Of a stretch of 20,116 nt of DNA, positions 8,627 through 20,116 are shown one piece after another. The notes below the pieces were generated by a model. It was not told where the DNA came from, ran no database searches, and was given only the letters and a program-made list of their open reading frames with translations. Source of the stretch: a virus. The stretch lies in IMG/VR virus record IMGVR_UViG_3300032116_001653, positions 1 to 20,116 of that record. The stretch is one strand, 5' to 3'. Position numbers and translations under genes: made by a program. Position 1 is the stretch's first letter. Each line of letters opens with the position of its first letter.

Positions 8627-10102
8627 ATGGCCTACATCCCACTTCAAATACCTCCAGGTGTCTACAAGAACGGTACTGAATACCAATCTAAAGGACGCTG
8701 GAACGACTCCAATCTGGTTCGGTGGTACGAGGGTACTCTAAGGCCTGTTGGTGGCTGGAGAAAGCGTTCTACGACTCAGCTAAGTGGATCTGCTCGTGGT
8801 CTGCTTAACTGGCGTGATAACTCCAACAATAGACGTATCGCAATTGGTACACATACACACCTTTATGCAATGAACGAAGGTGGATCTGTTTTTGACATTT
8901 CCCCTAACGATTTGGTTGCTGGTGATGCCAATGCTGTACTCAAGATTGGTTATGGATACGGTACATACGGCAACTATGCTTACGGTGTAGCTCGTCCTGA
9001 TCTTGGTCAATACACTCCTGCCACTACCTGGAGCATGGATACATTTGGTCAATATCTGGTTGCTTGTTCTTCAAAGGATGGACGATTGCTTGAGTGGCAG
9101 TTGAATACGAGTACTGATGCTGCTCCTATTACCAATGCCCCAACAAGCTGTACAGGTCTGATTGTTACCCAAGAGCGATTTATCTTTGCTTTGGGTGCAA
9201 GTGGCAATCCTCGTAAAGTTGCTTGGTGTGATCAAGAAAACAACACCATTTGGACTCCTGCCGCAACAAACCAAGCTGGTGACTTTGAGTTGACCACCAT
9301 TGGCTCCTTGATGTGTGCCAAAAGGGTTCGTGGTTCAACCATCTTGTTTACAGACATTGATGTCCATACAGCAACATACATTGGGCCACCATTTATTTAT
9401 AGTTTTGAGCGTGTTGGTACAGGCTGTGGTGTTATTTCAAAGCAAGCTGTTGCTGCTACTGATAATGCCTGTATTTGGATGTCTGGTTCAGGTTTCTGGA
9501 TTTATGATGGTTTTGTAAAGCCTTTGCCTTCTGATGTTGGTGATTATGTGTTTACCAACCTAAATCACACTCAATCTTCCAAGGTTTACTGCGTTCATAA
9601 CTCATCTTTTGGTGAGATCTGGTGGTTCTACCCAAGTGCTGGTTCAAACGAGGTGGACTCTTACGTGTCCTACAACTACCGTGAAACCCATTGGGCTATC
9701 GGTACTTTGGCTCGTACTTGCGGTACTGATCGTGGAATCTTCTCAAACCCACTGATGATGTCTACAGACGGTTATCTGTATGAGCATGAGGTAGGGTTTA
9801 ACTACGACTCACAGAGTGTCTTTGCTGAGTCTGGTCCTGTTGAATTGGGTGCTGGTGACAGATTGATGAGTCTTACTGGACTTATTCCTGATGAAAAGAC
9901 TGTTGGCAATGTCCAAGCCCGTCTAAGCACCAAGTTTTACCCCAATTCTGTGGAATATAACCACGGACCATATTCAATGAGTTCACCAACATCTGTACGT
10001 GTTACTGGACGACAAGTGGCTGTAAAGATTGAGGGTGTTGATCTAACTGATTGGCGAGTAGGTGTTATTCGTTTTGATGGCAAGCCTGGAAGTATGCGCT
10101 GA
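8627..10102 (+). CDS. Tail nozzle / stabilisation-like protein (beta-propeller type)
   Basis: This 491-aa protein starts with the typical entry YIPLQIPPGVYKNGTEYQSK, then GRWNDSNLVRWYEGTLRPVG and GWRKRS. A long series of beta-rich repeats follows (GTHTHLYAMNEGG, RFIFALGASGNPRKVAWCDQ, YVSYNYRETHWAIGTLARTC). This matches the tail tube/nozzle proteins of podophages (functional counterparts of T7 gp12 and P22 gp10), which sit below the adaptor ring and form the DNA channel with beta-propeller-like domains. The C-terminal VRVTGRQVAVKIEGVDLTDW looks like a final beta domain. The next gene overlaps as TGATG. The placement is by architecture and context, not exact family match. Confidence 0.82.
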   Translation: MAYIPLQIPPGVYKNGTEYQSKGRWNDSNLVRWYEGTLRPVGGWRKRSTTQLSGSARGLLNWRDNSNNRRIAIGTHTHLYAMNEGGSVFDISPNDLVAGDANAVLKIGYGYGTYGNYAYGVARPDLGQYTPATTWSMDTFGQYLVACSSKDGRLLEWQLNTSTDAAPITNAPTSCTGLIVTQERFIFALGASGNPRKVAWCDQENNTIWTPAATNQAGDFELTTIGSLMCAKRVRGSTILFTDIDVHTATYIGPPFIYSFERVGTGCGVISKQAVAATDNACIWMSGSGFWIYDGFVKPLPSDVGDYVFTNLNHTQSSKVYCVHNSSFGEIWWFYPSAGSNEVDSYVSYNYRETHWAIGTLARTCGTDRGIFSNPLMMSTDGYLYEHEVGFNYDSQSVFAESGPVELGAGDRLMSLTGLIPDEKTVGNVQARLSTKFYPNSVEYNHGPYSMSSPTSVRVTGRQVAVKIEGVDLTDWRVGVIRFDGKPGSMR

Positions 10103-17791: not shown

Positions 17792-18300
17792 CATCCATCC
17801 AACGCACAGCCCTAGCAGTGTTCTTGGTCCTGCTTGTGATCTTTGGGGTCTACAAGTGGGGTTATGGACGAGGCTGGGGTGATCGTGATGTTGAGATGCA
17901 AGCAGAGATTGCCAAGAAGAATGAAGAAGCTCGTGAAAAAGAGCAATCAATGGTCAAGGCTATTGCTGACAAAGAAACTGAACTGAGAAAGGCCAACGAT
18001 GTTGTCTCTCAAAAACAAACTGATCTTAATAAGCTCATTTCTGCTGGCAGGGTGCGGCTCCCCTCCGCAAGTTGCGTACAAGCCACCCCAAATCCCCCCG
18101 TTGCCACCGGAGATAGGAACGAAACGCCAAGCCAACCTAACAGAGCGCCTGACCCAGATCCTGGTCCCAGCGAATCAGAACGCCAAACCCTCCAACTGAT
18201 AGCACAGATTGCAGCAGATGGTGACAGGGCAATCAATCAGCTAAACGCCTGTGTAGATGCGTACAACAATATGAGGAATATCATCAATGCTAACCAGTGA
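17788..18300 (+). CDS. Rz: i-spanin (Rz-like), inner membrane
   Basis: This 170-aa protein has one N-terminal membrane helix (TALAVFLVLLVIFGVYKWGY, about 7-26). It then has a long Lys/Glu-rich coiled coil (EIAKKNEEAREKEQSMVKAI, continuing to about residue 88), a Pro-rich linker (about 103-130) and a helical C-terminal part with a Cys (NACVDAYNNM). This is the plan of the inner-membrane spanin Rz. With its outer-membrane partner Rz1 it fuses the two host membranes at the last step of lysis. The partner gene lies in another frame inside it. It overlaps the upstream gene by 4 nt (ATGA) and the endolysin by 14 nt. Confidence 0.88.
   Translation: MTSIQRTALAVFLVLLVIFGVYKWGYGRGWGDRDVEMQAEIAKKNEEAREKEQSMVKAIADKETELRKANDVVSQKQTDLNKLISAGRVRLPSASCVQATPNPPVATGDRNETPSQPNRAPDPDPGPSESERQTLQLIAQIAADGDRAINQLNACVDAYNNMRNIINANQ
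17999..18199 (+). CDS. Rz1: o-spanin (Rz1-like) lipoprotein nested inside Rz in another frame
   Basis: This 66-aa lipoprotein lies entirely inside the Rz gene, in another frame, spanning Rz codons about 71-137. Its N-terminus, MLSLKNKLILISSFLLAGCG, has a lipobox with Cys19. The mature part is proline-rich (PPQVAYKPPQIPPLPPE), as expected for Rz1, followed by a basic/polar tail. An AAAGG ribosome-binding site lies 7 nt before the ATG. In lambda-like phages the Rz1 gene is similarly embedded. The product sits in the outer membrane and pairs with Rz across the periplasm. Confidence 0.9.
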   Translation: MLSLKNKLILISSFLLAGCGSPPQVAYKPPQIPPLPPEIGTKRQANLTERLTQILVPANQNAKPSN

Positions 18301-18901
18301 ACAACTCAAGCAACTGCATATTAGCCCTGAGTGGACTGATCCTTTGAATGCTACGTTTGAGCGATTCAACATCAGAACACCACGGCAGATGGCTGCATTC
18401 ATTGGTCAATGTGGTCATGAGAGTGCCAACTTCCGACTGTTGGAAGAGAACCTCAATTACCGTGCTGCAACGCTGTTAAAGCTGTTCCCACTGACAACTC
18501 GTAGAACATGGGGCTTTACACCAGAAGAAGCTGCCGCTTATGAAAGACAACCTAAGAAAATTGCAAACCGCATTTACGGTAACCGCATGGGCAATCGGGA
18601 CGAGGCTTCTGGTGATGGGTATCGTTTTCGTGGTCGTGGTTGCATCCAGTTGACAGGATCTGCAAACTACCACCATGCTGGCAAGGCTTTGGGTGTGGAC
18701 TTCATTATGGAACCGGACCTAGTTGCTACCCCTCAGTATGCTGCTTTGACTGCTGGATGGTTTTGGGACACCCATAAGTTAAATGCAATTGCTGAGTCTG
18801 GTAACAACTTGGCCCTGACCAAGAAAATCAATGGTGGCACTATCGGTTTGGATGACCGAATCAAGCACACCAATGAAGCCTTGGCATTGTTCCCAGGTTA
18901 A
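18287..18901 (+). CDS. Endolysin, GH19 chitinase-like muramidase
   Basis: This 204-aa protein has the glycoside hydrolase family 19 core: MAAFIGQCGHESANFRLLEE (about 35-54) with the general-acid Glu45 in HES and the second catalytic Glu54, then NLNYRA. GDGYRFRGRGCIQLTGSANY is the substrate-binding segment, followed by AGWFWDTHKLN and TKKINGG. In phages this fold cleaves peptidoglycan glycan strands. No signal peptide is seen, so it needs a holin. It overlaps Rz by 14 nt; a GAGGA ribosome-binding site lies 9 nt before the ATG. Its TAA shares the TTAA at 18898-18901 with the stop of the opposing gene. Confidence 0.95.
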   Translation: MLTSEQLKQLHISPEWTDPLNATFERFNIRTPRQMAAFIGQCGHESANFRLLEENLNYRAATLLKLFPLTTRRTWGFTPEEAAAYERQPKKIANRIYGNRMGNRDEASGDGYRFRGRGCIQLTGSANYHHAGKALGVDFIMEPDLVATPQYAALTAGWFWDTHKLNAIAESGNNLALTKKINGGTIGLDDRIKHTNEALALFPG

Positions 18902-19110
18902 GAGTCCTTGTACTCAAGCTCCAGAAGCAGTTCAAGGTAATGAATTGCTTTCTGGATGTCAGCAGCACCATTCTTCTCTCTGTGACGGGTAACGTATTTG
19001 ATGACGTTGCCTTCACAAAAACCTAGATTGTTGGCGTGAATGTAGACAATGGGTTGGATGCCTTTGTCCTTGTAGTGGCTGCCCAAAATTTGATAATCAA
19101 GAGCCGACAT
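18898..19110 (-). CDS. DUF3310 protein (phage nucleotide-metabolism associated, unknown)
   Basis: This 70-aa protein carries the DUF3310 pattern: HYKDKGIQPIVYIHANNLGF, CEGNVIKYVTRHREK, then GAADIQKAIHYLELLLELE. DUF3310 proteins occur in many phages with nucleotide-metabolism genes and are sometimes called 'nucleotide kinase-like', but activity is not established. The start at 19110 has a clear AAGGAG ribosome-binding site (19119-19124). A longer reading from 19161 runs into the homing endonuclease gene and is not preferred. It converges on the endolysin and shares the TTAA stop; its first 14 nt overlap the end of the HNH gene. Confidence 0.9.
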   Translation of the reverse strand: MSALDYQILGSHYKDKGIQPIVYIHANNLGFCEGNVIKYVTRHREKNGAADIQKAIHYLELLLELEYKDS

Positions 19111-19606
19111 GTTTCCAACTCCTTTTGTTTCGAATATGCCAAATAGCTCCGACAGAAACATTGAATTTTCTAGACAACTCGGTATGGCTTGTTGATGTGG
19201 TTAATGCCTCAATAACTTGTGATTCATTTAATTTGCAAGTGTTTACCTTGCTTCCATGCACCCATGTTTTATGCAATTTTGAATCGTTGCTGTTTTCTTT
19301 GGGTGTTCCCCATTTTAAATTTGAAGCGCTATTGTTTTGATTGTTTCCATCAAGATGTCTAACCACTTGTTTCGGTATTGGAGCACCATGCCAAACTTCA
19401 GCAATCAGCCTACAAACTCTAAACGCTTTTCTTTTCCCATTGTCCATATGCAAGATAACTCTTGCGTATCCGTCTTTATCCGTAGCTGGTTTTAACAACC
19501 TGCGCTCTGTTGGAGTTGGAGCAAAATTTCTGTACGGCTTCCATGATGCAACTTGACCATCAAAAGATACTTCATAACTTGATGCAAAAGGCACTTTTTT
19601 CCACAT
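19097..19606 (-). CDS. NUMOD4-HNH homing endonuclease with C-terminal HTH
   Basis: This 169-aa protein starts with a NUMOD4 domain (WKKVPFASSYEVSFDGQVAS, about 2-40, including the typical YEVS-DG-V-S pattern). An HNH nuclease core follows (DGYARVILHMDNGKRKAFRV, then VCRLIAEVWHG and VVRHLDGNNQNNSASNLKWG, with H84, N92 and N96, and T-KEN at 101-105). A C-terminal helix-turn-helix (about 125-165, KLNESQVIEALTTSTSHTEL) probably reads DNA. Such genes are mobile and cut an allele lacking them. Here it is a free-standing gene between a hairpin and DUF3310 and overlaps DUF3310 by 14 nt. An AAGGA ribosome-binding site precedes ATG 19606. No intron is visible. Confidence 0.9.
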   Translation of the reverse strand: MWKKVPFASSYEVSFDGQVASWKPYRNFAPTPTERRLLKPATDKDGYARVILHMDNGKRKAFRVCRLIAEVWHGAPIPKQVVRHLDGNNQNNSASNLKWGTPKENSNDSKLHKTWVHGSKVNTCKLNESQVIEALTTSTSHTELSRKFNVSVGAIWHIRNKRSWKHVGS

Positions 19607-19620
19607 AACATTTTCCTTGC

Positions 19621-19702
19621 AAAAAAAAGCCCACTAAGACAGTCTCGGGTTTTAACCGTGGGGAGACACCGCTAGTACGATGCAGACTGCCTTAATGGGC
19701 TT
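19621..19702 (-). terminator. Large hairpin with U-run, possible terminator or structured RNA
   Basis: Read on the (-) strand, a 19-bp stem (arms at plus 19627-19645 and 19684-19702, with two G-U pairs) closes a 38-nt apical region. A run of T at plus 19621-19628 follows on the 3' side. The apical loop can form two small inner hairpins (GTG-TCTCCC-CAC and GGT-TAAA-ACC). It lies between the stop of the MazG-like gene and the HNH gene. The U-run makes a terminator the simplest reading; the branched top is unusual for one. Confidence 0.7.
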
Positions 19703-19711
19703 ACTAGATAA

Positions 19712-19725
19712 CTGCTCCCCAGCAG
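19712..19725 (-). other. Small 5-bp hairpin after the MazG-like gene
   Basis: CTGCT, a four-base loop and AGCAG form a perfect 5-bp hairpin directly after the MazG-like stop and before the large hairpin. On the (-) strand it reads CTGCTGGGGAGCAG. No U-run follows, so its function is unknown; it could be part of the same RNA structure. Confidence 0.5.
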
Positions 19726-19733
19726 CCATAAAA

Positions 19734-20042
19734 TTATATGTCAGATTTTACAAAGATGCCTTCTGGTGACAGATGACCTTTTCGGTCTTTAATCTGCTCA
19801 TAGGCGTGCTCAAAACACTCTACAAGGTCCAAATCAGCAGTGGCACAACCCATCACAAGGGTAACGAGAATATCGCCGTATGCATCGATCATGGCCTCTC
19901 TGTCATTAGATGAGATTGCATCAAGCAGTTCTTGCACTTCTTCTTTTGTTTTCCAAGCTTGAGCCATTGGATTGCTGTTCTGGACAATGCCACGAGCTTC
20001 ACCCCATCTGATTACTTCCATTTCTACTTGTGCGTATGACAT
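19734..20042 (-). CDS. MazG-like nucleotide pyrophosphohydrolase
   Basis: This 102-aa protein has the MazG-fold helix pattern with the metal-binding motifs KTKEEVQELLDAISS (E34, E35, E38) and DAYGDILVTLV (D53, D57), then AYEQIKDRKGHLSPEG. The family hydrolyses nucleoside triphosphates and may help the phage control nucleotide pools or host stringent response. The ATG at 20042 has an AAAGGA ribosome-binding site (20048-20053); an upstream TTG at 20066 is less likely. It begins 2 nt after the preceding (-) gene's stop, so it is in an operon with it. No membrane segment. Confidence 0.85.
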   Translation of the reverse strand: MSYAQVEMEVIRWGEARGIVQNSNPMAQAWKTKEEVQELLDAISSNDREAMIDAYGDILVTLVMGCATADLDLVECFEHAYEQIKDRKGHLSPEGIFVKSDI

Positions 20043-20044
20043 GT

Positions 20045-20116
20045 TTATCCTTTGTGAAGCAACCAAACACGCAAGCCATTCTCTTCTTTGCGGGTTGAGA
20101 TAACTTTGCCTGGATA
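20045..20116 (-). CDS. 3'-partial gene, function not visible
   Basis: The last 23 codons of a gene enter the window on the (-) strand from the right edge and end in TAA at 20045-20047. The visible C-terminus is YPGKVISTRKEENGLRVWLL followed by HKG, which looks coding and possibly a beta-rich or nucleic-acid-binding end. It is two nt from the MazG-like start and carries that gene's ribosome-binding site (AAAGGA). Too little is visible to name a family. Confidence 0.6.
   Translation of the reverse strand, partial: YPGKVISTRKEENGLRVWLLHKG

Follow-up and report, generated by a model that had tools for sequence, protein, structure and literature searches.

Several kinds of phage-borne RNA resemble the element described here in some part of their plan. 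The P4 CI RNA and the P1 c4 antisense RNA are phage leaders that pair with their own complementary motif copies near a start site or terminator, and type III toxin-antitoxin loci (ToxIN) are built from a promoter, a pseudoknotted RNA, a terminator and an ORF; small RNAs with two covariation-supported pseudoknots are usually sophisticated regulators or binders. IsrK of the Gifsy-1 prophage is described as having its own promoter and as ending at a Rho-independent terminator, with read-through giving the mRNA of the ORF behind it and with the short form acting in trans on that read-through message (PMC4825925); its Rfam number, RF01394, is named in PMC4603805. For T-even phages, RNA structures or terminators near the starts of homing-endonuclease genes are described as limiting or timing expression, the ribosome-binding site (RBS) lying in a hairpin, and the examples given include I-TevI, mobE, segB, terminators inside mobE and segF, and seg43(25) (PMC2988022).

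The DNA analysed here is a viral stretch of 20,116 nucleotides (IMGVR_UViG_3300032116_001653, hereafter the window), in which an original prediction made from the letters alone had drawn attention to a large branched hairpin with a U-run next to a homing endonuclease gene. We interpret it as a member of a new phage sRNA family with its own promoter and a terminator made of a closing stem (P2) and a U-run, whose read-through form serves as a leader controlling the gene behind it, a reading to which we assign a probability of about 0.5. The features of the locus lie as follows:

about 19621-19729, minus strand: structured RNA element
19733..19738, minus strand: TATAAT, a -10 promoter-like hexamer, 6 nt 5' of the P1 stem
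19710..19727, minus strand: P1, small hairpin with loop (U)GGGG(A), its stem with compensatory changes
19715..19721, minus strand: PK1 5' strand, UGGGGAG, the P1 loop
19659..19665, minus strand: PK1 3' strand, CUCCCCA, the P3/P4 linker, anti-Shine-Dalgarno-like
19702..19707, minus strand: PK2 5' strand, CUAGUA, the P1/P2 linker
19672-19677, minus strand: PK2 3' strand, UACUAG, the loop of P3
19684..19700, minus strand: P2 closing stem, 5' strand (fold and covariation)
19629..19645, minus strand: P2 closing stem, 3' strand (fold and covariation)
19666..19683, minus strand: P3, inner hairpin
19646..19658, minus strand: P4, inner hairpin, with double-sided changes in 3 of 4 pairs
19621..19628, minus strand: U8 run, forming with P2 an intrinsic-terminator-like end (from sequence)
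19097..19606, minus strand: ORF of homing-endonuclease type (NUMOD4 / HNH_3), 169 aa, directly behind the U-run
19734..20066, minus strand: mazG, gene for a MazG-like pyrophosphohydrolase, upstream of the RNA
18898..19161, minus strand: DUF3310 gene, downstream, its open frame overlapping the end of the HNH gene
19107..19747, minus strand: inserted cassette, approximate (-10 box, RNA, terminator, HNH ORF), from empty-site comparison

The 5' end of the RNA is predicted near the base of P1. The remainder of the window belongs to a phage with a SU10-type capsid protein and an adaptor; a gene for a GH19-type endolysin lies at 18287-18901, convergent with the strand that bears mazG, the HNH gene and DUF3310.

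The large hairpin is genuine and all the parts first described for it are present: a 161-nt stretch folds at -60.2 kcal/mol, as against -40.0 +/- 3.6 kcal/mol in 200 shuffles (z -5.67), none of which (0/200) was as stable as the native fold. The family architecture, about 105 nt long, consists of the P1 hairpin, the P2 stem of 17 bp (19 bp with two further A-U pairs to the U-run, which RNAalifold includes) enclosing P3 and P4, and the U-run. The apical region of the stem is filled by two inner hairpins, as had been proposed, these being P3 and P4, and the small hairpin said to precede it is P1. Absent from that first description were both pseudoknots: in PK1 the P1 loop is complementary to the linker between P3 and P4, and in PK2 the linker between P1 and P2 is complementary to the loop of P3. 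The junction letters of this double-pseudoknot fold are invariant among the aligned members.

Pattern scans and covariance models yielded at least 36 distinct sequences including that of the window; their sources are contigs of uncultivated phages, one phage genome from a database and two assemblies of the order Burkholderiales. Two further contigs with the RNA were picked up by a two-part pattern, and core patterns led to at least 33 records of type A, one tight subfamily to which the window belongs; L096 and L127 of this type end inside the RNA, and L095 carries the window's own RNA sequence in a different contig. With a pattern whose loops and linkers were left free, at least 11 divergent records were obtained (five each of types B and C, plus L136), and models together with BLASTN added type D (a second copy in L135/L139, L166 and L175) and type E (L145 and L168). 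Two types occur together in the contigs of L096 (A and D), L124 (A and E) and L139 (B and D), with different pseudoknot letters. The pattern matches L110, L123 and L129-L131 were due to chance and were left out of all counts.

Against 50,697 phage and 72,556 plasmid records, BLASTN with the window's RNA returned chance matches only; types B and C had no match among the phage records, type E had only short matches of 24-31 bases, and type D matched a pair of Manatee Spring records that seem to represent the same phage, and no plasmid record. One of the Burkholderiales sources is a contig of a MAG (L125) and the other a genome of the same order, in which L145 lies. Among genomes, model R1 matched 2 of 399 in the order of G001, and model R2 matched one of two in the family of G058, one of 369 in the class of G001, one of 398 in the phylum and one of 399 in the order of G058, the matches always being G001 and G058 and the filters used there being stricter, at the cost of weak matches. 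In L175 (MW202544.1), at 8901-9143, the annotation places a hypothetical protein antisense to the type D RNA, and the clear plus-strand ORF behind the RNA, from about 9112, carries no annotation. Two contigs that bear the family RNA also have sub-threshold matches to int-alpA RNA (RF02996), at L133:2115-2190 and L102:1001-1072, with 29.6 and 29.2 bits against a cut-off of 35.8.

Covariation was judged by means of shuffle and slide controls, of which shuffling ignores the relatedness of the rows. In the 36 distinct rows of types A-E, window included, 97.0% of 1604 cells are paired, double changes occur in 30 of 45 pairs (17.5 when shuffled), and covariation reaches 0.424, compared with 0.133 in shuffled and at most 0.097 in slid controls, the alignments (A4 and A5) having been fitted to a nested-stem model that favours the nested stems. 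The pseudoknots lie outside the model used for alignment; counted alone, they are paired in 99.5% of 426 cells, with double changes in 7 of 12 pairs and a covariation of 0.347 (slid controls at most 0.108), and they are less distinct when the further pair types are taken alone, the value then being reached by 23 of 500 shuffles. Type A by itself (24 distinct rows) pairs in 96.6% of 912 cells, with 10 pairs doubly changed. Since the type A search patterns held some pseudoknot letters, only the searches by model and by the pattern free of loops and linkers test the pseudoknots freely.

All cells of PK1 are paired and four of its six pairs have changed on both sides, the letters across types being UGGGGA/UCCCCA, UUGGAG/CUCCAA, UUGGUG or UUGGCG/CGCCAA, UUGGUC/GACCAA and UUGACG/CGUCAA. 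For PK2, 99% of cells are paired and three of six pairs show both-side changes (CUAGUA/UACUAG, CUAGCA/UGCUAG, GAGUA/UACUC, GUAGUA/UACUAC and CGAGU/AUUCG); PK2 of L175 pairs by eye as CUCAGU/ACUGAG, which a misplaced gap, left uncorrected in the counts, hides. The fold and both pseudoknots are established by this computation.

These results bear on the plainest explanation, an ordinary though oversized intrinsic terminator behind mazG, for which P2 and U8 would suffice. It had been supposed at the outset that an ordinary terminator would conserve the closing stem around a random loop; compensatory changes preserve the inner hairpins, and loops and linkers alike are engaged in pseudoknots, so the loop is not random. 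The suspicion that a simple terminator does not need a hairpin of this size was well founded, given covarying P1, P3 and P4 and two pseudoknots. Covariation in all these elements, together with the invariant linkers, contradicts an ordinary terminator, and relatives lack the element behind mazG, the first covariance model having found it in only 1 of 79 mazG loci (L092, within the contig of member L108); we consider this explanation extremely improbable.

Of 35 distinct stretches upstream of P1, 27 contain a hexamer with at least five of the six TATAAT letters, in most cases placed exactly 6 nt from the stem; this level of agreement is reached by 1.6% of control 22-mers. The hexamer is missing in the three type C rows, no -35 element was established, and a generic promoter scanner did not list the -10 site of the window. 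An inverted repeat, TGTGACA...TGTCACA, stands just upstream of the type C RNA in L134 and L141, at the position of the -10 box in other types, and could be an operator. At the other end the aligned members have a run of T behind P2, which CG interrupts in L121; P2 and U8 form the stable stem and U-run of an intrinsic terminator, in an RNA whose remaining fold is conserved too. The signals have the anatomy of a separate small RNA, which would be transcribed and terminated on its own, and the fixed distance of the -10 box suggests an autonomous promoter-sRNA-terminator unit.

The DUF3310 motif lies close behind mazG in 55 of the 79 mazG loci, all on viral contigs, something else standing there in 23 and one being too short. 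When the window is compared with the empty sites of L050, L088 and L027, the foreign piece has its left limit at 19747 and its right limit at 19107-19125, so that -10 box, RNA, U-run and HNH gene constitute one block between mazG and DUF3310. Its insertion between genes that are adjacent in relatives makes it a free-standing HNH cassette, and the HNH ORF is a putative homing endonuclease, presumed capable of site-specific cleavage and homing. Its closest relatives (L002, 3001-3498, and L003, 764-1261) are 80% identical and overlap the start of DUF3310; they stand without the family RNA, another gene being located upstream. In type A, a mazG-like gene was seen by eye upstream of the RNA in 16 of 30 rows. 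The HNH ORF of L126 (RNA at 855-965) ends in ...MNKEGIFVKEQ, which is a mazG C-terminal tail, and the tail of the mazG upstream differs; this cassette seems to sit within the 3' end of mazG and to have brought a substitute end, resembling a homing scar.

The suggestion that the hairpin is the end of a mobile element holds insofar as the RNA rides in an inserted cassette. An end acting as DNA, whether as a cruciform or as a transposase site, would fit the position of the RNA at the left limit of the cassette, but its many G-U pairs would become A-C mismatches on the opposite strand, and the antisense strand reaches no more than 32.5 bits, against 65 to 122 bits for the sense strand of whole copies. 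Both observations point to function at the RNA level, not the DNA level, and this part of the suggestion has very little likelihood.

An ORF of HNH type follows the RNA in 30 of 30 readable type A records (L096, L127 and L099 are cut off), representatives having been named by Pfam or PHROGs and the others through BLASTP links or by eye; those of L097, L105 and L118 have no Pfam HNH match and were assigned by PHROGs or BLASTP. Together with that of L126, these three form a group of four that BLASTP at 1e-5 does not connect with the large HNH group. L105 and L106, whose HNH ORFs show no BLASTP match at 1e-5, have RNAs with 97.3% identity, which indicates that one RNA serves unrelated HNH genes. 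Elsewhere the RNA precedes a non-HNH ORF (L136), a DUF1376 ORF (L145, type E), an ORF shared by L166 and L175 of type D, replication-like by eye and with no Pfam match (tested for L166), or, in type C, an ORF with no Pfam match. Behind the type D copy of L135 come first an HNH gene and then one for DUF1376, as if the former had been inserted between the RNA and the latter. The original prediction that this could be a new structured RNA linked with the HNH gene was largely right, and in type A the two travel together in all readable records. The link is nevertheless not an exclusive one: non-HNH genes, too, stand behind types C, D and E, and the HNH genes of L002 and L003 do without the RNA.

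This pattern also weighs on the idea that the RNA is a partner of the HNH protein, guide-like or antitoxin-like, with the ratio of the two governed by the terminator. The succession of promoter, structured RNA, terminator and ORF is indeed reminiscent of type III toxin-antitoxin loci, and the HNH gene is constant in type A, but RNAs up to 97% identical accompany unrelated HNH families, close HNH relatives lack the RNA, the RNA also stands before non-HNH genes, and it contains no variable guide-like segment, which makes such a partnership highly unlikely.

The main rival to an sRNA-leader is a leader acting in cis only, an attenuator or riboswitch-like element whose pseudoknots bind a ligand, a protein or a nascent partner and so set termination at the U-run; the conditional terminator once proposed for this locus is possible. 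Such an element would account for the compact double-pseudoknot fold with its invariant junction letters, for the stem and U-run immediately 5' of the ORF and for the DUF1376 or replication-like genes behind types D and E. However, the analysis identified no alternative pairing that could serve as antiterminator, the helix to be opened is a nearly perfect one of 17 bp, and the genes that follow are diverse (HNH, DUF1376 and others); we regard it as somewhat unlikely. The GGA letters in the loops might alternatively suggest a CsrA/RsmA connection.

Returning to the sRNA-leader reading, a link to the following gene is found at its start site. Of 31 type A rows, among which L136 is included, 22 repeat the heptamer of the P1 loop in the leader, taken from the U-run to the start codon. 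The exact copy is missing in 9 of these 31; the window, L094, L100, L111, L113 and L118 have no copy, and L101, L104 and L116 have variants. A copy is present in 3 of 3 type B leaders, in type B letters that match the changed pseudoknot, and in none of the seven rows of types C, D and E. Among 768 other ORFs of type A contigs and 1332 ORFs of mazG loci, none has TGGGGAG in the 25 nt upstream, while TTGGAGG stands there in 6 and 11, respectively, and is not rare enough for the type B copy to be more than weaker evidence. As the copy in L136 precedes a non-HNH gene, it goes with the RNA and not with HNH. The PK1 linker could pair with either start-site copy, type A or B, and the change of this motif from type A to type B may have been a single evolutionary event.

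The same linker is the basis of another alternative, a trans-acting sRNA directed against host or other phage messages, to which the HNH gene would be a hitch-hiker. In types A and B the linker reads CUCCCCA or CCUCCAA, types C, D and E have the RNA without HNH, and there is a sub-threshold likeness to RF02278, the Betaproteobacteria toxic sRNA (23.2 bits, E 0.0067, for the window; 24.9 bits, E 0.44, for L106). These scores fall well under the Rfam cut-off of 50 bits, placing the RNA outside that family, the linker of other types (CCGCCAA, CGACCAA or CCGUCAA) is not anti-SD, it is occupied by PK1, and the motif precedes none of the 768 other ORFs of the same contigs. We judge this alternative unlikely.

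The -10 box, the U-run, the start-site motif copy and the HNH association are computational observations; that the RNA is transcribed and terminated, and that it probably controls the gene behind it, in whichever direction, is inferred from them. In the mechanism that we propose, a double-pseudoknot sRNA of about 105 nt would be transcribed from its own -10 promoter and ended at P2 and the U-run, while a minority of transcripts would read through into the following gene, here the HNH homing endonuclease, so that the RNA would exist as an sRNA in its own right and also as the leader of that gene's mRNA. The PK1-closing linker of types A and B is also complementary to the RBS of the following gene, which carries a hairpin copy of the P1 loop, and the start site could be switched by the sRNA in trans or by the leader itself. 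For the window, which has no start-site copy, only the sRNA and terminator part can be claimed. If the linker is held in PK1, it is not free to bind the start site, and two pseudoknots exceed the needs of a simple antisense RNA.

No Rfam 15 family (4227 families) matched the window at the gathering score, and nine other loci gave four weak matches, all under that score; among the open-licence papers retrieved, none describes the RNA by title or abstract. The RNA family is new with respect to these sources, and its proposed mode of action is of a known kind. More tentatively, with somewhat less than even confidence, we suggest a new class: an interchangeable promoter-RNA-terminator module, whose types coexist in one genome, which has been captured by unrelated homing endonucleases and replication genes and in which competition between the loop and the copied start-site loop sets expression. 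The family offers a testable route to how selfish endonucleases are restrained in phage and to the question of whether an existing RNA control module can be taken over by mobile genes. Its discovery further suggests that entire RNA families remain to be described in uncultivated phages.

Compared with known systems, the RNA differs in fold from the P4 CI and P1 c4 RNAs (C4, RF01695), a family which had no Rfam match in the window or the nine loci, and from ToxIN in having HNH proteins in place of a ToxN-like protein and no tandem RNA repeats seen. The 169-aa NUMOD4-HNH_3 protein, in place of an IscB-type RuvC-HNH protein, and the lack of an Rfam match in the window place it apart from HEARO and the IscB omegaRNA. 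With RF02278 it shares a likely host group and a UGUCUCC.C motif ahead of a hairpin-and-U-run terminator, but the match spans only the 3' part of the family RNA. The structures near T-even endonuclease genes are local hairpins, whereas here one pseudoknotted RNA is common to unrelated HNH and non-HNH genes. The isrK family had no gathering-score match in the window and none at E up to 10 in the RNA stretch or up to 5 in the nine loci, and the RNA differs from IsrK in its two covarying pseudoknots and in mostly preceding HNH genes. IsrK is nevertheless phage-borne and follows the same promoter-sRNA-terminator-read-through plan, from which, given gene order and signals, a shared mechanism may be surmised; it is this order of promoter, RNA, terminator and ORF, together with the shared motif, that favours a leader sRNA controlling the gene that follows.
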